A stretch of DNA of 40,464 nucleotides, taken from positions 1-40,464 of the IMG/VR virus record IMGVR_UViG_3300032285_001056. The stretch is one strand, 5' to 3'. Below are positions 1,048 through 17,612 of this stretch, piece after piece (the stretch's first letter is position 1; each line of letters starts with the position of its first letter). The notes beneath the pieces were generated by a model that made no database searches, was not told the DNA's origin, and worked only from the letters and a program-made list of their open reading frames with translations. Both the position numbers and the translations under genes were made by a program. The DNA comes from a virus.

Positions 1048-2754
1048 ATGCAAACAACAGAGATAAATGGTTTTTTGATTGACCAATTCAATCAATATAA
1101 GCTTGAAGAAGGTAAGTCTCAAGGCGTTTGTCCCTTATGCTCGCCAGATAGAAAACCTCAAAATGAAAAAGCAAAATGTGCTTCTTATGATTGGGAACGC
1201 GGTATAGGTACTTGTCATAATTGTAATAAGACTTTTCAATTGCATACATACCAACGTAAAGGTAAAAGTGAAAAAGTATACGTTAGACCTGACGTTGCTA
1301 TACATACTCCTCCGAGTTCAAAAGTTGTTGACTGGTTTGCAACTCGCGGTATTTCAGAACAAACATTAAACGAACTTAATGTAACTGAAGGACAAGAGTT
1401 CATGCCTCAAACAGGTAAAACAGAAAATGTAATCAACTTTAACTATTATGTTGGTGATCAACTTATAAATGTAAAATACAGAGATGGCCGTAAAAATTTC
1501 AAACTTTATAAAGGTGCTGAAAAAGTATTTTATAATATTAATAGTATTGTTGGTTTCGAGTATTGTGTTATTGTGGAGGGTGAAATGGATGTACTTGCAT
1601 TACATGAGGCTGGAATTACTAATGCAATATCTGTGCCTAACGGTGCTACATTGGGTACAAATAACTTGGAATATCTTGATAACTGTATTGACTATTTTGA
1701 TGATAAAGATAGAATCATTATTGCTGTTGATTCCGACTCTGCCGGGCAAGCTTTACAGACTGAGTTAGTAAGAAGGTTAGGATCTGAAACCTGTTACTTA
1801 GCATCGTTTGAAGATTGTAAAGATGCAAATGAATATTTATTAAAATACGGGGCAGAAGCTTTATCTCAAAGAATTTCAAGAGCTAAACCTGTTCCATTAG
1901 AAAATGTTACAACTTTTAAAGATATTGAAGATGAGGTTACTGATTTTGTTAAAAACGGCTTTAAACCGGGTTTCCAGGTTGGACTCGATAACTTTGACAG
2001 TATTTTTAGCACTTATACTGGTCAGTTTATTACGGTTACTGGTATACCTAGTAGTGGTAAATCTGATTTTGTAGATCAAATGATTGTTGGTTATAATGAA
2101 AAGTATGGTTGGAAGACTGCATATGCATCACCTGAAAATACCCCAACATATTTGCATGCTCATAAGTTAATGCGTAAAACATGGCAAGGTATGCCTACTG
2201 TTGCTGATATTAAAACGGACAAATGGAACCAAGTAGCTGATCATGTTAATGATAATTATTTCTTTATTGACATGGAACGTTATACATTAGATTCAGTCCT
2301 TAGGAAAGGTGCTGAGTTAGTTAAGCGTAAAGGTATTAAATGTTTGGTTATTGATCCATTTAATAAAGTAAGAGACAATGATGCTTCTGGTGATGTTAAT
2401 GTTTATACATTAGAATACTTAAGTAAGATTGAAATATTTGCTAAGAAGTACGATGTATTAGTAATGGTTGTTGCTCACCCTACAAAAATGTATAAAGATG
2501 CTAAGGGTAATATTGAAGAGCCTACAATGTATAACATTAAAGGTGGTGGTGAATGGTATGATGCTTCATATCATGGTTTATTAGTACATAGGAACTACGA
2601 AGATAAAACTGTTAAGGTTAAAGTGCTTAAATGTAAGTTTCAAAACCTTGGAGAGAATGGTGCTGAATGTCATTTCAAATGGGATCCAGCTTCTGGTTGT
2701 TTTATACCTCATGAACCAATTAATATTAATGAAGATCGCATGCCCTGGGAATAA
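1048..2754 (+). CDS. Replicative primase-helicase (T7 gp4/Twinkle-like)
   Basis: 568 residues with the domain order of T7 gp4. First comes an N-terminal zinc-binding domain (C28-x2-C31, C56-x2-C59). A TOPRIM primase fold follows, with the conserved Glu in VIVEGEMD (E177) and the AVDSDSAG acidic motif (D228, D230). The C-terminal half is a RecA-type DnaB helicase with Walker A GIPSSGKS (K338, S339), Walker B CLVID (D436) and a VVAHPTK motif. The protein should unwind DNA 5' to 3' and prime the lagging strand. The length matches T7 gp4 (566 aa). The ATG follows an A/T-rich leader (TTAATAAATG) with no Shine-Dalgarno. It begins the main metabolic operon. No DNA polymerase gene is visible in the window, so it probably lies to the left. 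Confidence 0.93.
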   Translation: MQTTEINGFLIDQFNQYKLEEGKSQGVCPLCSPDRKPQNEKAKCASYDWERGIGTCHNCNKTFQLHTYQRKGKSEKVYVRPDVAIHTPPSSKVVDWFATRGISEQTLNELNVTEGQEFMPQTGKTENVINFNYYVGDQLINVKYRDGRKNFKLYKGAEKVFYNINSIVGFEYCVIVEGEMDVLALHEAGITNAISVPNGATLGTNNLEYLDNCIDYFDDKDRIIIAVDSDSAGQALQTELVRRLGSETCYLASFEDCKDANEYLLKYGAEALSQRISRAKPVPLENVTTFKDIEDEVTDFVKNGFKPGFQVGLDNFDSIFSTYTGQFITVTGIPSSGKSDFVDQMIVGYNEKYGWKTAYASPENTPTYLHAHKLMRKTWQGMPTVADIKTDKWNQVADHVNDNYFFIDMERYTLDSVLRKGAELVKRKGIKCLVIDPFNKVRDNDASGDVNVYTLEYLSKIEIFAKKYDVLVMVVAHPTKMYKDAKGNIEEPTMYNIKGGGEWYDASYHGLLVHRNYEDKTVKVKVLKCKFQNLGENGAECHFKWDPASGCFIPHEPININEDRMPWE

Positions 2755-2768
2755 TAATAATATAATAA

Positions 2769-3185
2769 ATGATTATGAAACACGAAGTAAAAATAATACC
2801 AAAAGAAGAAATATTGGCTAATAGAAGTAATGCTTATGAATTTATTGATTTTGATAAAAAAGAAACACTTGAAGAAGCATTTGATAGAATATTTGATTCA
2901 TTAGATTATATTTTATTCGATTTTTGCTCGTTTGAGCAAGGTGCTAAATGGCAAAAAGAACAATATACGGTTGAGGAGCAACACGTGGGACATAGTATTA
3001 ATGATTTAGATAAATCATATATGAAAGGTTTTAATGAAGGAGCTGAGTGGCAAAAAACGGAAATGGAATATTTTGCTATTGCATTTGCAGAATGGTTTAT
3101 TTGTCATTATACAGAAGAAGCTTTTTATGAAGAGAATTATACTAAAGAGATTTTAGAAAAGTATAAACAAGAAAAAGGTTTATAA
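2769..3185 (+). CDS. Hypothetical protein with two GA-x-WQK repeats
   Basis: 138 residues, not recognised. The protein is acidic with a mainly helical look. The motif GAKWQKEQ (residues about 58-65) recurs as GAEWQKTEME (about 92-101), each preceded by F and acidic residues, suggesting a duplicated helical hairpin. Similar GA-x-WQ segments appear in small early proteins of many phages with no known function. A second Met at residue 3 is an alternative start. The stop overlaps the next gene's ATG (TAATG), indicating translational coupling. Its position after the helicase suggests an early, replication-linked gene, but that is inference. Confidence 0.7.
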   Translation: MIMKHEVKIIPKEEILANRSNAYEFIDFDKKETLEEAFDRIFDSLDYILFDFCSFEQGAKWQKEQYTVEEQHVGHSINDLDKSYMKGFNEGAEWQKTEMEYFAIAFAEWFICHYTEEAFYEENYTKEILEKYKQEKGL

Positions 3186-3523
3186 TGGGCAGTGGAACTA
3201 AAAGTAAAAGCCAAGTTGATATGGGTTTTTATGCACCAAGTCAAAATGAGAATGATGCAAGAAGATGGTGTATTAATAATGGAATATGCATATCACCAAA
3301 AGCATTTAATACTTTAGAATGGTATGTATGTATTGTAATGAATGGTAAAGAAAATAAAAGTCCTAAAACTTATAAGAAAGTTGATATATGGAAACAAGTG
3401 TATCTATTTTATGTTTATTACTATAACAAATACAATACAAATATAAAGAGCCAACCAATGTTAGAAGATAAAAAGAAAATAGTAAAAGAAAAACAACAAT
3501 CAAATACAATACAATTATTTTAA
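3185..3523 (+). CDS. Hypothetical protein
   Basis: 112 residues, not recognised. A central region with many aromatic residues (ICISPKAFNTLEWYVCIV, then VYLFYVYYYNKY) is followed by a Lys/Gln-rich basic tail ending in QLF. It has no convincing signal peptide; the Tyr-rich stretch near residues 84-97 is amphipathic rather than a clear membrane segment. The start overlaps the previous stop by one base, and the ThyA-family gene starts one base after its stop, so it belongs to a tightly packed operon. It could be a small DNA-binding or host-takeover protein, but nothing in the sequence decides this. Confidence 0.65.
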   Translation: MGSGTKSKSQVDMGFYAPSQNENDARRWCINNGICISPKAFNTLEWYVCIVMNGKENKSPKTYKKVDIWKQVYLFYVYYYNKYNTNIKSQPMLEDKKKIVKEKQQSNTIQLF

Positions 3524-3524
3524 T

Positions 3525-4292
3525 ATGACAAAGTATGAATCACAATACAAGGAATTACTGTATAAATGTCTTGCTAACGGCACTAATCGTAATGATCGTA
3601 CTGGAGTTGGATGTAATTCTATATTTAATGCTAGCTTACGGATTGATCTTAAAGAAGGATTCCCACTATTAACTGGTAGAAAAATGTTTCAAAAAACTTT
3701 TGATACAGAATTTGAATGGTTTATGAATGGCGAAACTAATATCCAAAGATTCAGAGAGGCTAATGTAAAAATCTGGGATGCTTGGGCAGATGAGAACGGC
3801 GATCTTGGCCCTGTATATGGGCATCAAATGCGCAATTTTAACGATCAAAATATAGATCAGATGCAAATGCTTATCAAGAATTTAATTGATGATCCAGACA
3901 GTCGTAGGCACATTATAAGTTTATGGAATCCAGCTCAAACAAATCAAATGGCTTTGCCTCCTTGTTATCTTTATTTCCAATTCTTTGTGGATGGATTAGA
4001 TCTTAATATGTTTGTTGTACAAAGATCTGGTGATTTATTTTTAGGTATTCCATATGATGTAGCATTGTTTTCAAAAATGCTTTTGTATGTTGCTAATAAA
4101 GTTGAATTAAACGCTAATTTTATTGACATACAAATTGTTGACGCTCACGTTTACAACAATCAACACGATGCTATACACAAGTATCTTGATCAGGAAACTT
4201 TTCAGTCTCCGCAGTATTTTTACAAAAACGAGGCTTTAACCTTAATAAATTATAAACACGGTCCAGTAATTTCAGCAAAAGTGGCCATTTAA
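3525..4292 (+). CDS. ThyA-family pyrimidine nucleotide (hydroxy)methylase, predicted dCMP-specific
   Basis: 255 residues aligning end to end with E. coli thymidylate synthase (264 aa). Conserved features are the E in EFEWF, IWDAWADENGDLGPVYG, the SRR phosphate site (R127-R128), catalytic C147 in ALPPCY, QRSGD (R167, S168, D170), DAHVY (H208, Y210) and the C-terminal KVAI end. Two changes stand out. The residue equal to E. coli Asn177 is Asp178 (LGIPYDVA instead of LGLPFNIA), and His147 of E. coli is Tyr148. Asn177 reads the uracil ring; Asp there is the hallmark of T4 dCMP hydroxymethylase and switches thymidylate synthases toward dCMP. The enzyme therefore probably methylates or hydroxymethylates dCMP using methylene-tetrahydrofolate. 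Which product forms cannot be told from sequence. It sits directly upstream of a MazG-domain gene. Confidence 0.9.
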   Translation: MTKYESQYKELLYKCLANGTNRNDRTGVGCNSIFNASLRIDLKEGFPLLTGRKMFQKTFDTEFEWFMNGETNIQRFREANVKIWDAWADENGDLGPVYGHQMRNFNDQNIDQMQMLIKNLIDDPDSRRHIISLWNPAQTNQMALPPCYLYFQFFVDGLDLNMFVVQRSGDLFLGIPYDVALFSKMLLYVANKVELNANFIDIQIVDAHVYNNQHDAIHKYLDQETFQSPQYFYKNEALTLINYKHGPVISAKVAI

Positions 4293-4300
4293 TCTAAATT

Positions 4301-5092
4301 ATGTATTATATCTATCACATTTTTGGTAAAAAGATTGGAGTTACACGTAATCTTAATAATAGGGTTACAAGCCAACAAGGTTACAAAGAAGATGAATATG
4401 AAGTTCTAGAAACTAGTGATGACATTGATTATGTGTCAGAGCGGGAACTAGAACTTCAATCTATCTACGGCTATAAAGTAGATCGACAATCATATAAGAA
4501 TTTAACTCAAAAAAAATCAAATCAAATGCAATTAAACGTAACAGAACAAACTACAACATTTCCTTGTCCTATTAATAAACTTAAAGGTAATTTAATAGAT
4601 AACAAAGGAATGAAATTTAAAACAAACTTAGGTGAATATACTGTAAGTTTATCTTTAATAGATTGGATAACTAAGAACGCTAATACTTCAATGTTTAATC
4701 CGGCAAGATCATATGTTTATAATAAAGCATTAGATGAATTTGCTAAACAATATGACAAATCAGTTTCTAAACAACAAGAAATGCCTGAAGAAGTTCCTAA
4801 CGTATATGATCTTATTAGACAATGGGCAGATGAACGTGGTATATATAGAAATGGTGATGCTAAAACTCAATTTATAAAACTTCAAGAAGAAACTGGCGAA
4901 CTTGCTAGAGCAATATTAAAAAATAATCAAGAAGAATTAATTGATGCAATTGGTGATGCAGTAGTTGTATTGACTAATTTAGCTGCTTTAGAAGGATTAA
5001 AGATTGAGGATTGTGTTAAATCCGCTTATGATGTAATTAAATCAAGGCAAGGATCAATGATTAACGGAACATTTGTAAAACAAACACTATAA
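4301..5092 (+). CDS. GIY-YIG-like / MazG pyrophosphohydrolase fusion
   Basis: 263 residues in two parts. The C-terminal about 95 residues are an all-alpha MazG-type NTP pyrophosphohydrolase. The metal motif is E197-x2-E200 (LQEETGEL) and E212-x2-D215 with D219 (EELIDAIGDA). The N-terminal about 65 residues resemble a reduced GIY-YIG fold: YYIYHI, KIGVT, an Arg in NNR and a Glu in SERELELQ. The first GIY element is degenerate, so nuclease activity is doubtful. A middle segment (about 75-160) is unassigned. MazG-like enzymes hydrolyse NTPs or dNTPs to NMP and PPi. Next to the ThyA-family gene, it may convert dCTP or dUTP to the monophosphate substrate; this is inference from context. Confidence 0.8.
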   Translation: MYYIYHIFGKKIGVTRNLNNRVTSQQGYKEDEYEVLETSDDIDYVSERELELQSIYGYKVDRQSYKNLTQKKSNQMQLNVTEQTTTFPCPINKLKGNLIDNKGMKFKTNLGEYTVSLSLIDWITKNANTSMFNPARSYVYNKALDEFAKQYDKSVSKQQEMPEEVPNVYDLIRQWADERGIYRNGDAKTQFIKLQEETGELARAILKNNQEELIDAIGDAVVVLTNLAALEGLKIEDCVKSAYDVIKSRQGSMINGTFVKQTL

Positions 5093-5093
5093 T

Positions 5094-5525
5094 ATGAGAA
5101 AACAAGAAATTGAATTTAGAGATCCAGTTGTACAATCAGTAGTAAATAAATTTGTAGATCGTTCTGATGTTGGCTTTGCTAAATACGGAAAGACTATGCG
5201 AGATGATAGATCAGATGTTTTTGTTTGGCTTAATCATTTACAAGAAGAATTAATGGATGCTACATTATATCTTCAACGTTTAAAAGAAGAAATATCTGAT
5301 CTACGAGAAGAAAAAGCATTGCTTCAAGAATTAAATGATATTGATGTTATAGATGATTTTATATTTATACCTAAAAAAAAAGAAAAGAAACTGAAACAGA
5401 AAAAATCTTCGGCGCAGAAGCTTGGTCGTGGTGATCATTTTACTTTTACGATAGACGAACCAAAATATAGTAGAACTATATCGTCAACTGCAGCTAGTCA
5501 TATATTTCCAAATGAGGAAAATTAG
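5094..5525 (+). CDS. Second MazG-like (all-alpha NTP-PPase) protein
   Basis: 143 residues. The first 70 residues contain RSDVGFAKYGKTM, then WLNHLQEELMDATLYLQRLK. That pattern is typical of small phage MazG-like or dATP/dGTP diphosphohydrolase-annotated proteins, with E51-E52-x2-D55 as metal ligands. The rest is a charged coiled coil and a Lys-rich, low-complexity tail (KKKEKKLKQKK) without recognisable fold. It starts one base after the previous MazG fusion and overlaps the next gene by 14 bases. Two consecutive MazG-type genes suggest complementary nucleotide-pool sanitation or precursor supply. Enzyme activity and substrate are not proven by the visible motif because the first ExxE pair is not obvious. 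Confidence 0.7.
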   Translation: MRKQEIEFRDPVVQSVVNKFVDRSDVGFAKYGKTMRDDRSDVFVWLNHLQEELMDATLYLQRLKEEISDLREEKALLQELNDIDVIDDFIFIPKKKEKKLKQKKSSAQKLGRGDHFTFTIDEPKYSRTISSTAASHIFPNEEN

Positions 5526-6003
5526 CAGAAAAAAAGGACCAGTAACTTCTAAGGTGGTATCATATGATGGTATCACCTTTAAATCTGGATTAGAGAAATA
5601 CATGTACAAAGCATTAAAAGATGCCGGAATACCTGTTGAATATGAAAAGCACACATTTGAATTACTACCATCGTTTACATTCAAAAATAATTGTATAGAA
5701 AGACAGGCTAATAGTAAAGGTGATTTTATAAACAGAGGTAATAAAAAAGTTTTGAATTTAAAGTACACTCCAGATTTTGTTGGTGATGGATTTATAATTG
5801 AAACTAAAGGTAGAGCTAATGACGCTTTCCCATTACGTTGGAAAATGTTCAAATACTTAATGACTTTAATGTGTGACAATAGGACACTATATAAACCACA
5901 AAGTCAACGTGACTGTGATATTACTGTTGAATTAATTTTAAAAACAAAAACAAATGACAAAAAAGAAACCAAAGTTAGCGGAAGTACCAGAACCAGAATA
6001 TGA
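5512..6003 (+). CDS. T7 endonuclease I-like Holliday junction resolvase (PD-(D/E)XK)
   Basis: 163 residues with the T7 gp3 (endonuclease I) signature: FKSGLEKYMYKAL (E28), then VEYE, YTPDF (D88) and IIETKG (E97, K99). These match T7 endonuclease I E20, D55, E65 and K67. Phage relatives are often annotated as DUF1064. A roughly 40-residue insertion lies between the first Glu and the D...ExK core. The family cleaves four-way and branched DNA and, in T7, also breaks down host DNA. This is the second branched-DNA nuclease of the operon after the endonuclease VII at 244-603. The gene overlaps both neighbours (14 and 50 bases), showing a very compact operon. Confidence 0.85.
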   Translation: MRKISRKKGPVTSKVVSYDGITFKSGLEKYMYKALKDAGIPVEYEKHTFELLPSFTFKNNCIERQANSKGDFINRGNKKVLNLKYTPDFVGDGFIIETKGRANDAFPLRWKMFKYLMTLMCDNRTLYKPQSQRDCDITVELILKTKTNDKKETKVSGSTRTRI

Positions 6004-6158: not shown

Positions 6159-8027
6159 ATGAGTTTAACTTTAGATAAGCAGATTTTAAGTGACATAACA
6201 GTGTACACTAAATATGCTAAATATTTGCCAAACAAGGAAAGACGTGAGACCTGGCATGAATTAGTAACAAGGAATATGGAGATGCACGTTGCCAAGTTTC
6301 CTACAATGAAAGAATCAATTGAAGCAATATATGAAAATTTTGTATTTAATAAAAAAGTTCTTCCTTCGATGCGAAGCTTACAATTTGGCGGGAAAGCTAT
6401 TGAGCTTAATAACGCTCGCATTTATAACTGCGCTTTTTTACCTATTGATAGTATTCATAGTTTTTCTGAAACTATGTTTTTACTTCTTGGAGGTACTGGA
6501 GTTGGCTATTCGGTCCAACAACATCAAATTGACAAATTACCTGAGATTAGAAAACCTAATTATGATCGTAAGAAAAGGTATGTTGTACAAGACAGTATTA
6601 TCGGATGGGCAGACGCCATCAAAACCCTCTTCAAGTCCTACACCGGAGCAATGACTTCTCATATTGAGTTTGATTTATCTGACATAAGACAGAAGGGTGC
6701 ATTGCTTGTAACTGCTGGTGGTAAAGCTCCAGGACCAGAGCCATTAAGAATTGCATTAGTAAAAATTGAAGCTATTCTTAGAACAAAAGAGGATCGATCC
6801 AAATTAACAGACATTGAGTGTCATGATATTATGTGTCATATTGCCGATGCGGTTTTAGCTGGAGGTATTAGGCGTGCTGCAATGATCAGTTTGTTTGATT
6901 TAGATTCTACCGCTATGTTAAATTGCAAAGCTGGAAACTGGTGGGAAGAAAATCCACAAAGAGGTAGAGCCAATAATTCAGTAGTACTTTTAAGACATAA
7001 AATTGATAAGAAAACATTTGACAAAGTTTGGGAACGTATTGAAGCTTCTGGATCAGGCGAGCCAGGAATTTACCTTACTAATGATAAAGATTGGGGTACT
7101 AATCCTTGTTGTGAGATTGCTTTACGTCCTTACCAATTCTGCAACTTAACAGAAATTAATATGGCTAATATTGAAAGCCAAGACGATTTTAATGCAAGAG
7201 CATCAGCAGCATCATTCTTGGGAACGTTGCAAGCATCGTATTCAGACTTTCATTATCTGCGAGATATATGGAGAAAGAATACAGAAAAAGATGCATTGCT
7301 TGGCGTTTCAATGACAGGTATTGCATCAGAGTCAAACTTAAAATTAGATTATGAAAAAGCTGCAAAAATTGTTAAAGATACTAATAACGAAATCGCATAC
7401 TTATTACATATTAACCCTGCTGCTCGTACTACAGCGGTCAAACCCGCAGGAACTACGAGCTTGGTGTTGGGTACTTCTTCTGGGATACATGCTTGGCACA
7501 ATGATTACTATATTAGAAGAATGCGATTAGGCAAGAATGAAGCAATATATTCTTATCTTGCAATAAATCATCCAGAATTGATTGAAGATGAATATTTTAA
7601 TCCAACATTACAGTCAGTCATTTCTGTGCCTCAGAAAGCTCCAGATGGTGCTATAACAAGATATGAGTCAACATTAGATCTATTAGAAAGAGTTAAATTG
7701 ATTTCTAAGGATTGGGTTAAGCAAGGTCATTCAAAAGGTAACAATACACATAATGTTTCATGTACAGTTTCGGTAAGAGATGATGAATGGAAGATTATTG
7801 GCGAGTGGATGTGGGCAAACAAAGATTATTATAATGGATTATCTGTTTTACCATATCACGGTGGTACATACAAGCAAACACCGTTTGAAGATTGTACCAA
7901 AGAGGTATACGAGCAAATGATGGCGACATTAAAAGATGTTGATCTATCAAAAGTAATTGAGATCCAGGATAATACAAACTTTGGGGAGTCAGTTGCGTGT
8001 GGACCGGGAGGATGTGAAATAACTTAA
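6159..8027 (+). CDS. Adenosylcobalamin-dependent (class II) ribonucleotide reductase, compact monomeric form
   Basis: 622 residues. Catalytic residues match the Lactobacillus leichmannii-type enzyme by spacing. C91 (RIYNCAF) and C328 (QFCNL) form the active-site redox pair. N315-P-C317-C-E319 gives the radical Cys with its Asn and Glu, with C317 to C328 separated by 11 residues as in 408/419. C614 and C619 (CGPGGCE) form the C-terminal shuttle, 5 apart as in 731/736. SMRSLQFGG and LGGTGVGYS are also typical. The enzyme reduces ribonucleotides to deoxyribonucleotides using B12. It is about 115 residues shorter than the L. leichmannii enzyme. NPC is followed by Cys where Gly is usual. Its place behind the ThyA/MazG genes makes a nucleotide-supply operon that is independent of oxygen but depends on cobalamin. 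Confidence 0.92.
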   Translation: MSLTLDKQILSDITVYTKYAKYLPNKERRETWHELVTRNMEMHVAKFPTMKESIEAIYENFVFNKKVLPSMRSLQFGGKAIELNNARIYNCAFLPIDSIHSFSETMFLLLGGTGVGYSVQQHQIDKLPEIRKPNYDRKKRYVVQDSIIGWADAIKTLFKSYTGAMTSHIEFDLSDIRQKGALLVTAGGKAPGPEPLRIALVKIEAILRTKEDRSKLTDIECHDIMCHIADAVLAGGIRRAAMISLFDLDSTAMLNCKAGNWWEENPQRGRANNSVVLLRHKIDKKTFDKVWERIEASGSGEPGIYLTNDKDWGTNPCCEIALRPYQFCNLTEINMANIESQDDFNARASAASFLGTLQASYSDFHYLRDIWRKNTEKDALLGVSMTGIASESNLKLDYEKAAKIVKDTNNEIAYLLHINPAARTTAVKPAGTTSLVLGTSSGIHAWHNDYYIRRMRLGKNEAIYSYLAINHPELIEDEYFNPTLQSVISVPQKAPDGAITRYESTLDLLERVKLISKDWVKQGHSKGNNTHNVSCTVSVRDDEWKIIGEWMWANKDYYNGLSVLPYHGGTYKQTPFEDCTKEVYEQMMATLKDVDLSKVIEIQDNTNFGESVACGPGGCEIT

Positions 8028-8327: not shown

Positions 8328-11300
8328 TCAACCCATTTTTCTTTTACGTTTGTTTCTTCTTTCCATAGCTTTTTCCCTTCTTATTCTCATTCGTTCTTCC
8401 ATAGGCAAAGCTTTGATAGAATCCCTAATGCGTTCTCTTGTTTCCTTAGTTTTAATTTTACCCTCTTCTTTCCTTACTTCTTTAGCTTTAGCTCTTATTT
8501 CTTGATCTCCTTTTGTATCTTCAATGCCAACACTATATGGAGACCATCCCATTCCAATCATTACTCTTTGCCATGCTTGATTTTGTGAATTCATTGCTTG
8601 TGATACATTTTCAACCTTGTTTACAAGACGATCCATTGGGAAGTTTGTACCTGCTTCAACAAGTTTTCCTGTAACACTGTACATAGGACCTAAGTGAACT
8701 CTACCATCTTGCATAACGCCCCAACCTCTTTCTTTTATAAGGTCTTTTTCAAACTTTGTTTGTTGAAGTCCTGTATATACTTTTTTAAGTTTAGATCCAA
8801 TTGGAGGAGATATGTTTGCGCCCTCAAGTACAACTTTTGCATAGTCAGCTTTAAAATTCTTTTCTTTTTCTTCACGGTATTTTAAAAACATATTTTTTAA
8901 TGTAACCGTAATTCCACCAACAAATCCAGTACCCCTTAAAATGGTATCCAAAATATCATTACCTACAGATGCTATTTTATTATCTTTTTCTTTTAATTTT
9001 TTCTTTTTATCTTTGTCAAATTCATCACTATCATCTCCTCCATGATCACCAGAAAAAGCTATTGCAAATAAACCTTGTTGTAATACAGAAAACATTAAAT
9101 TCTGAATACCTAAATAATAAATAATTTTAGCTACATTTGTTTTATCATCTCCACGTCTATTTTTAAGATCTAAAAAAGATTTTTTAACAATACGAGACTG
9201 TTGCATTGCTGTGTTTTGGAAAGTTAATAATAACCTTCCTGCTGGACTTGCTTGTTGTTTTGATATATCTCTTGGATCACCAGATTGTTGCGTTTCATCT
9301 GATACTTTAGTAAAATCATTCCACGCATTAGCCTCCGCTTCTGCTTGTGATTGTCCTTCTTTTAAGTAGGTTTTAATTCTATTTCTATAAAACGGAGCAC
9401 CTCCGGAAGCAATAGCAAAACTATCCGCTAATTGTGTTGGTGTATAACCTATTTTTAATAAATAAGATACAACTGCGTTAACTTTATTTTTACTACCTGA
9501 AGCAGCATTGGCAATTTCAGCAGCAGCAACATCTTCTTTTAAACCGCCACGTCTTTCTTTCATTTTATCTGAATTCCAAATACGTGAAAAATCTTCCCAA
9601 TATTGTTTCTGATTAGCAAAAGCTTTACCAGCGGCTACTGGATTATTATCTCTTAAGTTTAAAAAGTTAACTGCACCAATTAATTGCAAAGCAGCAGATC
9701 TAGTGTTCAAGAACATAATAGTTCCTGTAGATCCATTCACCCAATTACTCCATGCAGAAGTTTCTTTGTCTTTGCCATAACTTCTGTTTTTACCATTAGT
9801 CATTCTGTACAATTGATCTTCTAAAGCTTCTCTTACATTTGTGCCATATACCGCTTCAATCTTATTCATGTTAGGTCCGGTTAATTTACCATTGTCCCAT
9901 GTACCAAACATTTTTTCGTAGTTTTCAATAAACTCCCCTAAGAATTTTTTTCTACCTTCTCCTTCAGTTAGATTGTGTAAATCAGATATAATTGTACTTG
10001 CATCCCAGTATTCTGATGGTTTAATCCAACCTTTTCCTTGTCTACCGGTTGCAATCAATCCTTGCTTAAAAGCAGTAAGTTCAGCGTCATTATTAACAAG
10101 ATCAGTTAATTTAACTTGATCTCTTTGAGATATTCCAGGAATTTCAATACCCTGTTCTGTCCACATTGCAACTCGTAATGCTTGATCATATGTGTAATCA
10201 CCATCAGGAGTTAACTTTTCAATTTTACTTCTAATATCAGGGAATTGATTAGTTAATGCTTTGTAATCTTTCTTAATTGATTGTCTTGCCGCGTCCATCA
10301 AATCATTACCATTAGCATATGGTTTTAATAGTGCATCTGCAAAGAATTTTTTATGAGCTTCTCCTTTACTACCTTTCCCCATAAAATTATATAATAATAA
10401 TTCAAAATCTGCTGCGGATGGTGGAACATAAAAATCAAATTTGTTTTTGTTTGCTCCTCTTCTTCTTGCAACAATATCTGAAAATACTTTATAACTTTCC
10501 ATACCAGTATTTTCCTCAATTATTTTATTGAAGTTTTCACTAATATCTAAACTAAATTTCTTTTTAGCTTGTTGTACTCTTCCTTTTACGTCAAGTACAT
10601 TCAATGCATCTTTAACTACTTGAACATTTGGCAAATGATCATCTACAAAATAAAAATCATTATATCCTTCTGAAGCTTTGGCTGTAATCCAGTCAGCTTT
10701 TGCCTGTGCTCTACTATCGCCAAGACCTGTAATATTTTCAAGTGGGATGTCTAAACCAAAAGTTCTTAAAAACTCTTGGATAGGCTCCGCGGCATCAGCT
10801 GGCCTTGCGGTTAATACAAATATATCGCTTGTTCCTCTCTTTTGAGATATTGCTTTTGCAACACTTAATAGAGGACCAGGCATTCCTTCTCTAACATTAG
10901 CAAAATCACTAAAGTCAAATTGAGCACCGTCATTAGCAAGTAACCCCGCTTTTTCAGCAAACTCAGCACCTGTTAAAGCACCGACGGTGCCATCAGGCAT
11001 TGTGTATAGCACTTGATTTGTAGTTGATCCTAAAGTATCATCAAAATCAAACACTCTTATTTTTTTAACTTCATCACTATATTTATCTGTTAATGAATCA
11101 GTAATGGCATCATTTGTATCCGCAATAACTTTACTTTCTTTACTGGCTACATTAGTCTTTGCTAAAGATTCTTGGGCTTTTAATGTATCATAAAAATCTT
11201 TAGGAGTTTCCCATCCCATTAATTCTGGATTTATTATTTTAACATTTGGATTAGCTTTAATGTAATCATTCCACGCTTCCAAGGCTGCCGGATCTTTATA

Positions 11301-14300
11301 TCTAGGTTTTCCGGGTAAATCGTATTTAGGTATTGCATTAGCAACTGATCTAGGTATATAATGTACTTGTGTATTAGATAAATACTTCTCAATATTTGTA
11401 TTTTTTCTAAAATCTTTATTAGTTAAATACTTATATACAACATCTTTTGCAATTTCTATTGGGGGGTTATGTTCTGCGATCATAGGACCAAGTTTTTTAC
11501 CTTCTAATCCAGACCCAATTTTGGCTGCTTGTCTTCCATGACCTAATTGATCCGTAAATATTATGTCTAAAGATTTTTTTATACTTTTATCTAATTCTGT
11601 TTTTTGACTTGGGTTTAATAATTCACCCTTAGCATCTTTTTTAAATCCTTTATAAATAATATCATATTTATTTTCTAAATAATTAATATCTGATATTACC
11701 GCTTTAAAAGCAGAGTCTTTATGTGATTGTGCAATATCTTTTACATCATTAAATTTATACTTTATTTCTGTTGTATATACAGGTATTCTTAATTTTTCTC
11801 CTTTACTATTTAATATTGATCTATTCTCAAAAGTAATTTGTTTATCTTTTGGTAAATTAAAACTTTTTTGTAATGGATCAATTATTTTTTCAAAAATATC
11901 TTTATTTGTTTTACCAATTAATCCTAAAGTTTTTAATCCTATTTTTGAAGCAGAAGTAGTTACTGTTCTAGCTTTTGAAATTACAAATCCTTCTAAAACT
12001 GCTTTTATATAATCTTCTTTTTGTTTGTCTGTTCCTTTAAAATTATTTATATTATTGAGCAAGCTAAATTTAGCATCGTCATAAATTTTATCAATATCGC
12101 TTTGTTTTTCTTCAATAGATTTACTTTCTTTTTTATTACCTTGTTCAAATTGGCGTATAATTTCACTTTGTTGAACATCTGCCATAACAACCCCTAATGC
12201 TTCTTGATTTTTTCTAAAAGCATCAAATATAGGGTTTTCTGTTTTAATTGCATTATTAAGATCTTCAATCTTTTTATTTTCAACAGGAGTACGTTTTTCA
12301 GGACTTATATCTTCTATCTCTAATATATCATGATATTTCTGCATACCGGATAAAACATCGTCTCTCCAGGCTTCTAAAGATATTTGTTTAGCTAATTCGG
12401 TGGCTACAGCTTCTTTAGCCCCTCTACGAGGATTTCCAGTTGCTGGATCAATAATTCTATTTGTAAAAGTTGCATCTGATACGGCATTTGCTACATCAGG
12501 GGTTCTTCTAACCATTAAATCTCCAGAAGTATTTCCTCTATTATCAGTTGTTGTAGCTGTTCTATCTATTTTTTTACCAATATAATCTGGATAAGATAAC
12601 CATTCACCATTAACTCTTTTCTGAACCGCTTCTGGTATACCTCCGGCCACTTCTGTTGCACTTGATTTACCCATTAAAAAGGTAGTAGTTGCATTCTCAA
12701 GTACCGCTTTTTTATTTTTAATTAACCAGTTTACAAGTTGATTGTCTTTTTTACCACCCATAGCAGTTTTAATATCAATGTCGACTTGCGACCCCATGTT
12801 ATTAAGTATCTCCCTAATAATAGGTTCAATACTCTTATTAACTGAGGTTTTTATATCTACCCTAGTTTTAAGAGTTCTTGCAATAGGCACAACCTTATTC
12901 TTTATAGTATTTAAAGTTTCTTTATCTACTATTTTAGAGTCAGTTAAACTTTTAAATTTAGGTTTATATCCTTGATCAACCTCTGACTCAAATTCAAAAT
13001 CTGCTTCTTCTTGCGACATTAATTCTTTTACAGAGCCAACACCACCCGCTTCCACATCTATTGACGATGTACTCAATTGCTTTTTATATTTATTAGCAAT
13101 ATCCCCAATTTTATTTTTAAGTCCAAATTGACTACCTAAAATAAATCCTCCTAAACTATTGTTAACTTCTGGATTAAATTTTAATAATGTTGCTTCTAAT
13201 AAACGATCTTTTACATCTTCTATAAATGTTTCAATATGTACTCCATGAATATTATCTGCAGAAACACCATTACGTGTTAATTCTTTTTTAATTAATGGAT
13301 CAAGCATATTACCATCAATTAATTTTTCTTTTGCTTTTAATACTCCACCAGCATCCCATTCTTCCTTGGTCATTTTATATTTGCCATTAGAATCTTTTGG
13401 GCCGACAAAGCTATCTATTTCATTACCTAATTTTTTTTCATCAACAGATTTTACTTTTTCTGTTTTTGATACAGGTTGTTTTGCAATTGGTTCAATTACC
13501 GTTTCAACACTAGGATTTTCTAAAGCATCAATCTTTGCATATAATTCATCTAGATCTATTTTATTGTCCCCATATAAATCATATAATTTCTTAACTTCCT
13601 CTTCTATATCTTTTGATTGCTTTGTATTTTTTGTTCCTTCATATGCATCTACAATTGCTTTATCGGCATTAACCATTTCATAATACCTTTTAATTGCTGC
13701 TGGATCATCAAGTTCTGCATTACCAATTTCAAGATCAGTTAATTTACCAAGATCTATATTAGCTATTGCTTCCGCATATTCATAGGATTTTTTATCTCCT
13801 CTTTTAAAACTTTGGGCATAGTCATTTAATACTTCAAGTAATTCATTTGCAGATTTTACCTCAACATTAATTTCTTTGTTTCTACCAATTAAATTATTAA
13901 AATCATTTAAAAGATTTTTGAAAAGACTACGGGCTTTTAATGGATTAGTAAGATTTTTTGCTTTACCCAACTCTTCAATTACCATTCTTACTATTTCATC
14001 CTGTATTTCAGCAGGATTAGAAATTTTACCTGTTTCAGGATCTATTTTTTTATATGTATGAGTAACACCTTCAATAAGACCCACATTTTCAGGTAATCCA
14101 GTTTCTTCATTAACAATACTGTATATTTTTTCATTAAATAAATCAGGAAAATTTTTATTTAATATATCAACAATTCTTTTATTTTTATTTGCTTCTAATT
14201 GTTGTTTATACAATGATATATCCTCAGGAGATGGTTTAACTTCTTTACCATCTTTTATAATTGTGGATTCAGCATATTCTTTTGCTTTTTTATTTACTTC

Positions 14301-17300
14301 AATAGCATCTACTAAATGCGAAAGCTCATGCGCAATTACACCTGTATTTGTAACATTATTTTTATTAATTTTATCTTTATTAAGATATATTGTTCCGGGT
14401 GTTTCTAATTCATTTGTTTCTTTATTATATATTGGCTCATCAAAAGAACTATTTTTTTCTCCTGAAATTACTTTTATATTTAAATCATGACCAAATTCAT
14501 TTTTATAATTTTCCATGAATTTAGGGTGCAACTGAGCAATAAAATTTTCAAGACCTTCATCTGTCTTTATTGCCTCACTATAAGCATAGTCCATATGAGC
14601 CTGTGAAAGCACCTCATAAGCACTTTTAGCTTGATTTAGATCTTTATTTAAAGCTTTTAAATCTTCTTTATTATTTGATTTATCACTTAATTTAAATTGT
14701 TCTACGGCTTGATAAGCTTCTTCATATTTTGTTTTACTTTCTTTTAAAGATTTTTCTAATTGTTCACCAGACATAAAGAAATTACCGGTCATAGTCTTAG
14801 GCACTTCCATATATGAAAAAGCTAAAGCATTACCTAACATTCTTTTAGTTACATCACTAAAGTTGTTAAATTCTTTATCTATATATTGTCCAAAATCCTC
14901 ATTTTTTGTAATTGAGTGGAACATATTTTCTGTAATTCCCGCAAATTCCATTAATCCAGCTCCTTTAGCAGAATTATATGCAAGATTGGATACATTATTT
15001 AATCCTCTATATTTAAAAGCATTAAATATTTTAAGTTCTTCCGGCAATAATGCTCCTCCTGTATAAAAAGCTGCTCCAGCCGTCGGTCCCATGCCGATTG
15101 CACGCATTTTAGCTTCTTCTTTAATAGCGGAAGTAATATGGAAAAAAGCTCTTTCACTTAATTTTTCGCTAGTCTTTAATGCTTTAAAAGCAGCTAATGT
15201 TTCTGATCCCAATGCTGCCGTAGCAAGACCCTCTGTTACAATTTCAGCAGCAACAATTTTTGCAACTAATGGCGCTCCAACTCCAGCTCCAAATCCAACT
15301 TGTGCTTTAAAAGTGGGTACTAATTCTAATTCCGCTTTATTTGATAATTTAATACCGGATTCTTCTAAAACTTGTTTGTCAAGATCTATTTTTTCTCCAG
15401 ATGTAATATAGTTTTCGTTAATACCTTTATTTATACCTTCCCAAACATTCCCAAAAAAGCCTTTAACTTTTTTAGTTGGGGATTGGTTTAACATATACAT
15501 ATCATTAATAGCTATTGTTTTAGCTTTTAAATCAATATTTGATTCTCTCCAATTATTTAAATCCGCGTCAATTTTAACCCCCCTACCATTTTTTGCCTTA
15601 GGATTATAAGAATATAAATCTAAAGACCCCATGCCTTCTTTTTGAAATCCTAAAAATTCTGACACTCCTCCACCACCAGATCCATTTTCTGAAATAGAAA
15701 TTTCTTTATTAACCATACCGGCTAATACTTTTTTAGGTACACCTGATAATAACATATTCCCACCAGGTAATTCTTTAACAGTATAACCCATCTGTTGCAA
15801 TTTATCACTTCTATCGGGATTGTACTTCATGACGGCATTGATTTTTTTATCACCATCATTAACATTACTTTCTAATTGAGAATTATATTTTACAAAAGCA
15901 TTTGCTATTTTTTCTGTAGTAGTTCCTCCCCATATTTGTTTGAATGAAGCAATTTTATCTGTTAATTCTACAGAAGTATCTTTACCCAAATCAACTTTCC
16001 CATCTTTAACAAGGGCTCCTTTAGATGTTTCTGGATTCCAAAAATATCTATTATATTCATCTCCTTGGGCCGATAATTTTTTTGCTTGATTTTCTGAAAG
16101 CGCTATTTGGGATTTAACATTATATATTTGATTTGCAATGTTTGGGTCTTTGGAAGTTTTTGCTTTTAATTCTAAATTATAAAGAGTTTCTTTTAATGCG
16201 GTTACATTGTTCCAATAATTTGCAATTGTTTTTTTAGAACTATCAAAAGTATTGTAAACATTTTTTTTATAACGATTTAATTCTACATCAAAACTTTTAG
16301 TAGCCAAGGCTTCTTGCTCTATTTTGCTTTTTTCTGCTTTTTGTTCTATATCTAATTGAGCAATGTGCTCTATTGCATATTTTTTAATAAGATTTTCATT
16401 TAATCCCGCCTCTAATAATTTTGGATTTCTAATAATAAAACTATCAACCCAATTTTGCGCTTCTTCTCCATTTGACGCTATTTTCTTTAAAGTATTTTCT
16501 TTAAATATTGGGTCATTTTTAATATCTAATTGTACGGCTTTATTAACATCTACCTTTACTTGTTTTGCAACAGCAATAACTTTTTCAGCTTGTGTATCAG
16601 GAGAATCATTTGGATCAAAAAGAGGTTTTGCTCCACTATCAATTGCTTTTCTTGTTAAACGCACTATTTCAGTGCCTTTAGATAATAATGGTGTTACATC
16701 CGCGCCTAATACACTTTGTACAGCGGCTTTAGGCAAAGCCAACATATTTTTAGCAATTCCCCAAAGCTCTAAAGTTCCATTTCCAGCATTTTCTAAAGCT
16801 GTTTCAGTAGTAAGTCCAGTATCTTTATAATTTGCAACTTCTTTTTTGTATTTAGCGTCGGCTTCTTTTGTTGCTTTAGTATAAGAACCATTACTATAAA
16901 TAAAATTGTTTAGGTCCTCCATAGAAGAGGCTCCACCCCCTATAGCCTCATCTTGTGCATTTCTTTCTTTATTACTGTTAATAACAGAATCTAAATTAAA
17001 TAAAAGTTTTTTTCCTGTTTTATTAGACTTTATTAATACAGTGTTTTCAAACATATTAGCCGGAGCTTCAATTGAAAAATCATTATTATCTTTATTTTTT
17101 GAATTTATTATTTGTTTTAAAGTAGTAGCTGCTTCATCATCATCAAGATTTTCAGATTGCCACCATTCTTTGTCTTTTCTTTTATACCAATCATTAGGTA
17201 TTGCAATTGGATTTTTATCCTCTTTATAAGGCAAAACATTTTTAATTTCCTTTTTAGCAACTTGCGTAGGAATTCCATTTGATTTAATTGATTGTGTATT

Positions 17301-17612
17301 ATTAAACTTTTCTAACCCTAATGGATCAAATGTTTTAGTTTCACCAAATGGATTACTTGGCGATACCGAAGAAGGTTCTGCCGATTTGGATGCCGTACTT
17401 TTTGCTGTTGCAACCGCATCCTCTTTTACAACAGTTTTTGGCTTTCCCGGCGTTTCACTTGTTACTTTTTTAACTGCCTTTTCTTTTGGTTTTTTTAAAG
17501 ATAATTTATTCTTTTTAATAATATCTTCAAAAGTTGTTTTATTGTCTTTTGCTGCTTGATTTATTTCATCAACTGTGTATAAAAATCCAGCTTCGTTAAC
17601 ATATTCTTCCAT
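8328..17612 (-). CDS. Giant multidomain internal virion/ejection protein (zincin motif, HAD phosphatase, sigma-like segment)
   Basis: 3094 residues, last gene of the structural block. Visible parts are as follows. The N-terminus (FLYTVDEINQAAKD...FEDIIKKNKL) is of a type repeated on phage cargo proteins. Long Lys/Glu/Asn-rich helical regions follow. A hydrophobic Gly/Ala-rich stretch lies near residue 770-800. A zinc-protease motif HELSH is at 1095-1099. A sigma-region-2-like segment lies near 1455-1515. A HAD phosphatase domain spans about 2185-2340, with DFDDT at 2189-2193, FVLTARP near 2263 and YFVDDHLPN near 2317. A helical C-terminal region has one hydrophobic stretch near 2840 and ends in a strongly basic tail. 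By size and position it resembles the large ejected proteins of T7 (gp16), N4 and crAss-like phages. No RNA polymerase or lysozyme motif was seen. The role is inferred. Confidence 0.85.
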   Translation of the reverse strand: MEEYVNEAGFLYTVDEINQAAKDNKTTFEDIIKKNKLSLKKPKEKAVKKVTSETPGKPKTVVKEDAVATAKSTASKSAEPSSVSPSNPFGETKTFDPLGLEKFNNTQSIKSNGIPTQVAKKEIKNVLPYKEDKNPIAIPNDWYKRKDKEWWQSENLDDDEAATTLKQIINSKNKDNNDFSIEAPANMFENTVLIKSNKTGKKLLFNLDSVINSNKERNAQDEAIGGGASSMEDLNNFIYSNGSYTKATKEADAKYKKEVANYKDTGLTTETALENAGNGTLELWGIAKNMLALPKAAVQSVLGADVTPLLSKGTEIVRLTRKAIDSGAKPLFDPNDSPDTQAEKVIAVAKQVKVDVNKAVQLDIKNDPIFKENTLKKIASNGEEAQNWVDSFIIRNPKLLEAGLNENLIKKYAIEHIAQLDIEQKAEKSKIEQEALATKSFDVELNRYKKNVYNTFDSSKKTIANYWNNVTALKETLYNLELKAKTSKDPNIANQIYNVKSQIALSENQAKKLSAQGDEYNRYFWNPETSKGALVKDGKVDLGKDTSVELTDKIASFKQIWGGTTTEKIANAFVKYNSQLESNVNDGDKKINAVMKYNPDRSDKLQQMGYTVKELPGGNMLLSGVPKKVLAGMVNKEISISENGSGGGGVSEFLGFQKEGMGSLDLYSYNPKAKNGRGVKIDADLNNWRESNIDLKAKTIAINDMYMLNQSPTKKVKGFFGNVWEGINKGINENYITSGEKIDLDKQVLEESGIKLSNKAELELVPTFKAQVGFGAGVGAPLVAKIVAAEIVTEGLATAALGSETLAAFKALKTSEKLSERAFFHITSAIKEEAKMRAIGMGPTAGAAFYTGGALLPEELKIFNAFKYRGLNNVSNLAYNSAKGAGLMEFAGITENMFHSITKNEDFGQYIDKEFNNFSDVTKRMLGNALAFSYMEVPKTMTGNFFMSGEQLEKSLKESKTKYEEAYQAVEQFKLSDKSNNKEDLKALNKDLNQAKSAYEVLSQAHMDYAYSEAIKTDEGLENFIAQLHPKFMENYKNEFGHDLNIKVISGEKNSSFDEPIYNKETNELETPGTIYLNKDKINKNNVTNTGVIAHELSHLVDAIEVNKKAKEYAESTIIKDGKEVKPSPEDISLYKQQLEANKNKRIVDILNKNFPDLFNEKIYSIVNEETGLPENVGLIEGVTHTYKKIDPETGKISNPAEIQDEIVRMVIEELGKAKNLTNPLKARSLFKNLLNDFNNLIGRNKEINVEVKSANELLEVLNDYAQSFKRGDKKSYEYAEAIANIDLGKLTDLEIGNAELDDPAAIKRYYEMVNADKAIVDAYEGTKNTKQSKDIEEEVKKLYDLYGDNKIDLDELYAKIDALENPSVETVIEPIAKQPVSKTEKVKSVDEKKLGNEIDSFVGPKDSNGKYKMTKEEWDAGGVLKAKEKLIDGNMLDPLIKKELTRNGVSADNIHGVHIETFIEDVKDRLLEATLLKFNPEVNNSLGGFILGSQFGLKNKIGDIANKYKKQLSTSSIDVEAGGVGSVKELMSQEEADFEFESEVDQGYKPKFKSLTDSKIVDKETLNTIKNKVVPIARTLKTRVDIKTSVNKSIEPIIREILNNMGSQVDIDIKTAMGGKKDNQLVNWLIKNKKAVLENATTTFLMGKSSATEVAGGIPEAVQKRVNGEWLSYPDYIGKKIDRTATTTDNRGNTSGDLMVRRTPDVANAVSDATFTNRIIDPATGNPRRGAKEAVATELAKQISLEAWRDDVLSGMQKYHDILEIEDISPEKRTPVENKKIEDLNNAIKTENPIFDAFRKNQEALGVVMADVQQSEIIRQFEQGNKKESKSIEEKQSDIDKIYDDAKFSLLNNINNFKGTDKQKEDYIKAVLEGFVISKARTVTTSASKIGLKTLGLIGKTNKDIFEKIIDPLQKSFNLPKDKQITFENRSILNSKGEKLRIPVYTTEIKYKFNDVKDIAQSHKDSAFKAVISDINYLENKYDIIYKGFKKDAKGELLNPSQKTELDKSIKKSLDIIFTDQLGHGRQAAKIGSGLEGKKLGPMIAEHNPPIEIAKDVVYKYLTNKDFRKNTNIEKYLSNTQVHYIPRSVANAIPKYDLPGKPRYKDPAALEAWNDYIKANPNVKIINPELMGWETPKDFYDTLKAQESLAKTNVASKESKVIADTNDAITDSLTDKYSDEVKKIRVFDFDDTLGSTTNQVLYTMPDGTVGALTGAEFAEKAGLLANDGAQFDFSDFANVREGMPGPLLSVAKAISQKRGTSDIFVLTARPADAAEPIQEFLRTFGLDIPLENITGLGDSRAQAKADWITAKASEGYNDFYFVDDHLPNVQVVKDALNVLDVKGRVQQAKKKFSLDISENFNKIIEENTGMESYKVFSDIVARRRGANKNKFDFYVPPSAADFELLLYNFMGKGSKGEAHKKFFADALLKPYANGNDLMDAARQSIKKDYKALTNQFPDIRSKIEKLTPDGDYTYDQALRVAMWTEQGIEIPGISQRDQVKLTDLVNNDAELTAFKQGLIATGRQGKGWIKPSEYWDASTIISDLHNLTEGEGRKKFLGEFIENYEKMFGTWDNGKLTGPNMNKIEAVYGTNVREALEDQLYRMTNGKNRSYGKDKETSAWSNWVNGSTGTIMFLNTRSAALQLIGAVNFLNLRDNNPVAAGKAFANQKQYWEDFSRIWNSDKMKERRGGLKEDVAAAEIANAASGSKNKVNAVVSYLLKIGYTPTQLADSFAIASGGAPFYRNRIKTYLKEGQSQAEAEANAWNDFTKVSDETQQSGDPRDISKQQASPAGRLLLTFQNTAMQQSRIVKKSFLDLKNRRGDDKTNVAKIIYYLGIQNLMFSVLQQGLFAIAFSGDHGGDDSDEFDKDKKKKLKEKDNKIASVGNDILDTILRGTGFVGGITVTLKNMFLKYREEKEKNFKADYAKVVLEGANISPPIGSKLKKVYTGLQQTKFEKDLIKERGWGVMQDGRVHLGPMYSVTGKLVEAGTNFPMDRLVNKVENVSQAMNSQNQAWQRVMIGMGWSPYSVGIEDTKGDQEIRAKAKEVRKEEGKIKTKETRERIRDSIKALPMEERMRIRREKAMERRNKRKRKMG

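Follow-up and report, generated by a model that had tools for sequence, protein, structure and literature searches.

The locus and its gene neighbourhood

The window, meaning the whole stretch of DNA that was analysed, corresponds to a linear virus record of 40,464 bases in IMG/VR. Table 1 shows the features of the locus, which centres on a gene referred to as dMT. The bounds of its open reading frame are exact (start ATG at 3525 and last stop base at 4292).

Table 1. Features of the locus in the window (dMT, predicted dCMP C5-methylase; dCH, T4-type dCMP hydroxymethylase of related phages)
Feature	Position	Strand	Evidence and remarks
Primase-helicase, upstream of the slot	1048..2754	+	phrog_239, 1.7e-88; used for the exchange tree
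g112, small conserved protein, left edge of the slot	3185..3523	+	Homologues in 51/80 dMT and 41/80 dCH loci
dMT, ThyA-fold enzyme, predicted dCMP C5-methylase, 255 aa	3525..4292	+	PF00303, fold, Asp178/Tyr148
TGT TAT, catalytic Cys147 and Tyr148 (E. coli C146, H147)	3963..3968	+	TAT at 3966-3968
GAT codon, Asp178 (E. coli N177), pyrimidine-specificity residue	4056..4058	+	Alignment
MazG/PRA-PH NTP pyrophosphatase domain, C-terminal half	4301..5092	+	PF03819, 5.7e-7; PF01503, 1.8e-5
Small conserved protein with EELMDA motif, same gene block	5094..5525	+	10/10 large relatives compared; PHROG families without assigned function
Ribonucleotide reductase, class II type	6159..8027	+	phrog_367, 4.1e-128; TIGR02505, 5e-76, below curated cut-off

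dMT begins right after g112, and the MazG-domain gene follows within 10 bases downstream. The gene order, all on the plus strand, is g112, dMT, the MazG-domain gene, the EELMDA gene, a gene at 5512-6003 and the ribonucleotide reductase. A profile search of structures with the MazG-domain product gave generic MazG-like matches only. Each of the 30 large relatives contained exactly one ThyA copy, and the PRA-PH gene was likewise present in 30/30. No match to dCMP deaminase (PF00383) was obtained in these 30 relatives, with 12/14 control genomes matched, and ThyX, DHFR and dUTPase each gave 0/30 with working controls, although the records are possibly incomplete. Genes that supply dUMP would be expected in a phage that makes dTMP, so the lack of such matches disfavours dTMP supply. 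The co-occurrence of a thymidylate synthase with PRA-PH was typical of modified contigs in the MetaGPA study (PMC8670742), and an NTP pyrophosphatase beside the modifying enzyme, as expected of a cytosine-modified phage, was found in the window. No hypermodification genes were recognised among the Pfam matches of the non-structural proteins examined from two methylase and three hydroxymethylase relatives; the TET search ran without a positive control.

Other genes of the window and its relatives were recorded. The ribonucleotide reductase that follows the slot is also exchanged, with class II in the window and many relatives and class I NrdB/NrdA in others; the class I genes lie at the equivalent place (noted in relatives G015, G017, G020 and G021) and occur with both modification enzymes. 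An endonuclease VII-like gene at 244-603 had matches in 16/80 methylase loci and 0/80 hydroxymethylase loci, which could simply follow clade. The 104-aa product of the gene at 608-922 has an acidic DDLPF tail and is conserved in all relatives compared; judged by eye, it resembles single-strand DNA binding proteins. A pyrimidine-dimer DNA glycosylase (PF03013) was found in relative G001 (L089:3054-3533), and almost every large relative has a homologue. The virion gene block has at its end a single 3094-aa ORF on the minus strand (8328-17612); it falls in no clear family, and every relative compared has large ORFs that match it.

The terminase of the window was closest to that of an uncultured Manatee Spring podovirus (65% identity), followed by those of Elemovirus phages of Flavobacterium (45%), and this kinship places the phage with podoviruses of Bacteroidota. 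The virion gene order is shared with the Elemovirus podoviruses and MW202828, which are Bacteroidota phages with terminases 45% and 65% identical to that of the window, respectively. Unlike the window, elemoA has no thymidylate synthase and MW202828 has ThyX instead of the ThyA-type gene, neither genome having a PF00303 match. An Asp/Tyr enzyme 57% identical to dMT was found on QQUU01000066, a contig binned with a Bacteroidetes MAG, which is probably a phage contig and a hint to the host.

Fold and active site of the enzyme

dMT matched the Pfam family Thymidylat_synt (PF00303) with an E-value of 3.5e-75 and 253 bits, against a curated cut-off of 24.3, and PDB thymidylate synthases with an E-value of 7e-59. 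The AlphaFold model (pLDDT 88) demonstrated a TM of 0.93 to E. coli ThyA, with which dMT shares 42% identity, and the best 50 PDB matches of the model comprised only thymidylate synthases, apart from one designed protein built on the same fold. Both the Pfam score and the ThyA fold thus place dMT in the thymidylate synthase superfamily.

Alignment to E. coli ThyA bore out the claim of the earlier note that the catalytic residues are intact: Cys147 (C146), Arg167 (R166), Ser168 (S167), Asp170 (D169), His208 (H207) and Tyr210 (Y209) are kept, as are Glu62 (E58), Trp84 (W80), Trp87 (W83), Tyr98 (Y94) and the C-terminal tail. Two positions differ, with Asp178 at E. coli N177 and Tyr148 at E. coli H147. 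This switch, which had also been pointed out beforehand, held in an alignment with ThyA, T4 gp42 and Xp12-type enzymes, the Xp12 clade being represented by DLP4 and AAT-1. Both residues are invariant in 82/82 compared sequences (74 distinct), including 80 IMG/VR relatives of 57-94% identity, and are therefore not a sequencing error. In the tree, the dMT family formed a clade of its own (support 100/98), outside which fell the gp42-like enzymes, the Xp12 clade and the Asn-type synthases.

In a panel of 29 enzymes, Asp177 was found with His147 in 0/13 cases, the partners there being Tyr, Thr, Pro or Met, while Asn177 was found with His147 in 14/16, the remaining two (Paenibacillus/Aneurinibacillus enzymes) having Val. 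Positions 177 and 147 were the top two that separated cytosine-modified from unmodified contigs among 433 phage thymidylate synthases in MetaGPA (PMC8670742). According to work cited in that paper, in which two synthases were tested, the change of Asn to Asp (N177D) turns a thymidylate synthase into a dCMP methylase that makes 5-methyl-dCMP. The proposal that this change brings a preference for dCMP is supported by this mutagenesis and by the environmental association. The Asn177 that hydrogen-bonds uracil in thymidylate synthases converting dUMP to dTMP is Asp throughout the dMT family, and Asp177 is the residue of dCMP methylases of the EC 2.1.1.54 type. The family invariance, the adjoining pyrophosphatase, the lack of a detected dUMP-feeding gene and the same-slot hydroxymethylase described below further back the dCMP reading.

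As regards the product, the signature of hydroxymethylation in the T4 enzyme is Ser94-x-Tyr96 with Asp145 three residues before the Cys, where thymidylate synthases have Leu; Ser94 and Asp145 are needed for placement and activation of water, and the synthase C-terminal tail is missing (PMC6400193). In the dMT family, the Ser94 site (Pro96-x-Tyr98 in the window; E. coli position 92) is occupied by Pro or Lys and in no case by Ser, the Asp145 site is Leu in 82/82 sequences (Leu144 in the window; E. coli position 143), and the C-terminus is VAI, VAV, IAI or IAV in 81/82. The synthase-type pocket and tail for hydride transfer of a dCMP methylase are therefore present in the family, and the gp42 signature is absent from the window enzyme. 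Because Pro/Lys, Leu and the synthase tail replace the T4 signature, methylation is predicted, and the active site would yield 5-methyl-dCMP rather than 5-hydroxymethyl-dCMP. The pocket residues of the predicted Xp12-clade methylases differ (Pro147, Asn143), so that such residues are not a complete guide to the product. The earlier note had allowed either product; the methyl part gains from the pocket and tail, and the hydroxymethyl part loses by the lack of Ser94 and Asp145.

A dCMP hydroxymethylase making 5-hydroxymethyl-dCMP like T4 gp42 would share the Asp at 177/179 that is common to dMT and gp42, and a gp42-like enzyme does occupy the same slot in sister phages. However, the hydroxymethylase reading of the window gene was rejected on the T4 signature residues, and among solved structures the window enzyme comes closest to thymidylate synthases, the sister enzyme to CMP and dCMP hydroxymethylases. 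This explanation is considered unlikely, at about one chance in ten.

Two enzymes annotated as thymidylate synthases, from Votkovvirus S28C10 (AP013540, marine) and Microbacterium phage Swervy, have Asp177 with Tyr147 or Met147, and are possibly further mislabelled dCMP-modifying enzymes.

Exchange of enzymes in one slot

A search for thymidylate synthase genes in terminase relatives showed three contigs with a different gene of the superfamily, of about 212-228 aa, in the place of dMT. Related phages with a gp42-like gene in this position have terminases 76-82% identical. A scan of the collection gave 513 relatives of the gp42-like slot gene (dCH), and Ser94, Tyr96, Asp145, Cys148, Thr149 and Asp179 (T4 numbering) were kept in all 80 of those fetched. 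Both types have a common gene order of primase-helicase, g112, enzyme and MazG gene. In the loci inspected, g112 lay immediately before the gene for the enzyme, and wherever the flank was long enough the MazG gene adjoined it, in 75/75 dMT loci and 74/74 dCH loci. The primase-helicase was found at most 4 kb upstream in 38/51 dMT loci and 33/52 dCH loci.

In the tree of the adjacent primase-helicase, the dMT and dCH types interleave. The fewest changes that explain the tree are five, and at least three exchanges are forced by well supported branches (quick method). Since dMT and dCH occupy one slot among close relatives, the group seems to have switched cytosine disguises several times. The two enzymes share a predicted dCMP specificity and not a product, so the slot would be kept by selection for cytosine modification. 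It is more probable than not that the locus is a dedicated base-modification slot in which a dCMP methylase (5mC) and a dCMP hydroxymethylase (5hmC) were repeatedly swapped, in one direction or the other, with the flanks unchanged, perhaps to escape host systems directed at one of the two modified bases. From its sequences, this lineage of Elemovirus-like podoviruses of Bacteroidota is predicted to hold both chemistries.

Restriction palindromes were also counted, on the premise that they should not be purged where DNA is protected. Among genomes without either enzyme, MW202828 contained no GATC (0 against 193 expected) and no CCGG; CCGG, GGCC and CGCG were all absent from elemoA, and GATC, CCGG and CGCG from Panino. 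Over 76 contigs, purged sites were found in 8/70 enzyme-bearing contigs (mainly CATG and GATC) and in 3/6 outgroups (Fisher p=0.036), a contrast that is only suggestive because hosts differ and the contigs are related. This lends weak support to protected DNA, and the purging that persists in the 8 enzyme-bearing contigs speaks against it; the conclusions do not lean on this contrast.

Proposed chemistry and its meaning

An ordinary thymidylate synthase that makes dTMP from dUMP and tolerates Asp at 177 is less probable still than a hydroxymethylase. dMT is ThyA-like in sequence and fold overall, and ThyA is common in phages as a source of dTMP; against this stand the tested effect of the Asn-to-Asp change, the family-wide Asp, the 0/30 matches to dUTPase and dCMP deaminase, and a same-slot substitute that, as a dCMP hydroxymethylase, is not expected to make dTMP. 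The least probable explanation is a detour in which dCMP is methylated and the product deaminated to dTMP, leaving the DNA unmodified, which is chemically possible, as 5-methyl-dCMP is accepted by some dCMP deaminases, but would require a host enzyme given the lack of PF00383 matches in the relatives, and leaves the exchange with a hydroxymethylase unexplained.

The best explanation, with a probability of roughly 78%, is that dMT is a dCMP C5-methylase with its evolutionary origin in thymidylate synthase, that it gives the phage 5mC DNA, and that the locus is a dCMP modification slot. For this enzyme, Cys147 would attack C6 of dCMP, the cytosine ring being recognised by Asp178 in place of Asn. 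With methylene-tetrahydrofolate as carbon donor, the synthase-type pocket and C-terminal tail would make hydride transfer possible, so that 5-methyl-dCMP and dihydrofolate are the products. The adjoining MazG-type enzyme, a proposed dCTPase, would probably turn dCTP into dCMP, both feeding the methylase and starving the polymerase of plain dCTP. 5-Methyl-dCTP may then be formed by host kinases, which are assumed for this step because no nucleotide kinase was recognised. The replicated DNA would carry 5-methylcytosine and be shielded from restriction, and in related phages a T4-type dCMP hydroxymethylase takes the place of the methylase in the slot.

The same proposed chemistry, 5-methyl-dCMP and then 5mC in place of C, applies to the Xp12 clade (AXL1, DLP4 and AAT-1). 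The DNA of Xp12 is fully 5mC, and AXL1 DNA resists most C/G cutters (PMC9206674, PMC7653180). DLP4 and AAT-1 also have a superfamily gene with Asp177 and a residue other than His at 147 beside an NTP pyrophosphatase. The clade differs in its 27-28% identity to dMT and in belonging to another phage family; in DLP4 and AAT-1, residues 147 and 143 are Pro and Asn, the C-terminal tail of the synthases is missing and a dCMP deaminase lies nearby, with DHFR present in DLP4 and AXL1 as well. T4 gp42 resembles dMT in its superfamily, its Asp179, its dCMP substrate and the gp42-like copies in the slot of relatives, but the two are only 24% identical, and the window enzyme has the synthase tail but neither Ser94 nor Asp145. 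The N177D thymidylate synthases of MetaGPA are, from their published description, alike in Asp177, the changed 147 and the PRA-PH co-occurrence; their worked example is 5hmC carbamoylation (PMC8670742), whereas no carbamoyltransferase was recognised here. E. coli ThyA, for all its likeness, differs from dMT at the two switched positions and lies outside its clade.

The enzyme type is known in kind. What appears new is the lineage of phages and the repeated exchange in one slot; no earlier report of a same-slot exchange of methylase and hydroxymethylase was found among the open-licence papers searched. Few known phages have 5-methylcytosine genomes, and the sequences predict such genomes for a widespread group of uncultured Bacteroidota phages. 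Because its members carry predicted 5mC or 5hmC machinery at a single locus, the group would be a natural experiment: against a common genetic background, each base could be compared for its effect on glycosylases, restriction and type IV nucleases, and the methylase and hydroxymethylase of one slot would offer a clean set of residues for the retuning of thymidylate synthase.
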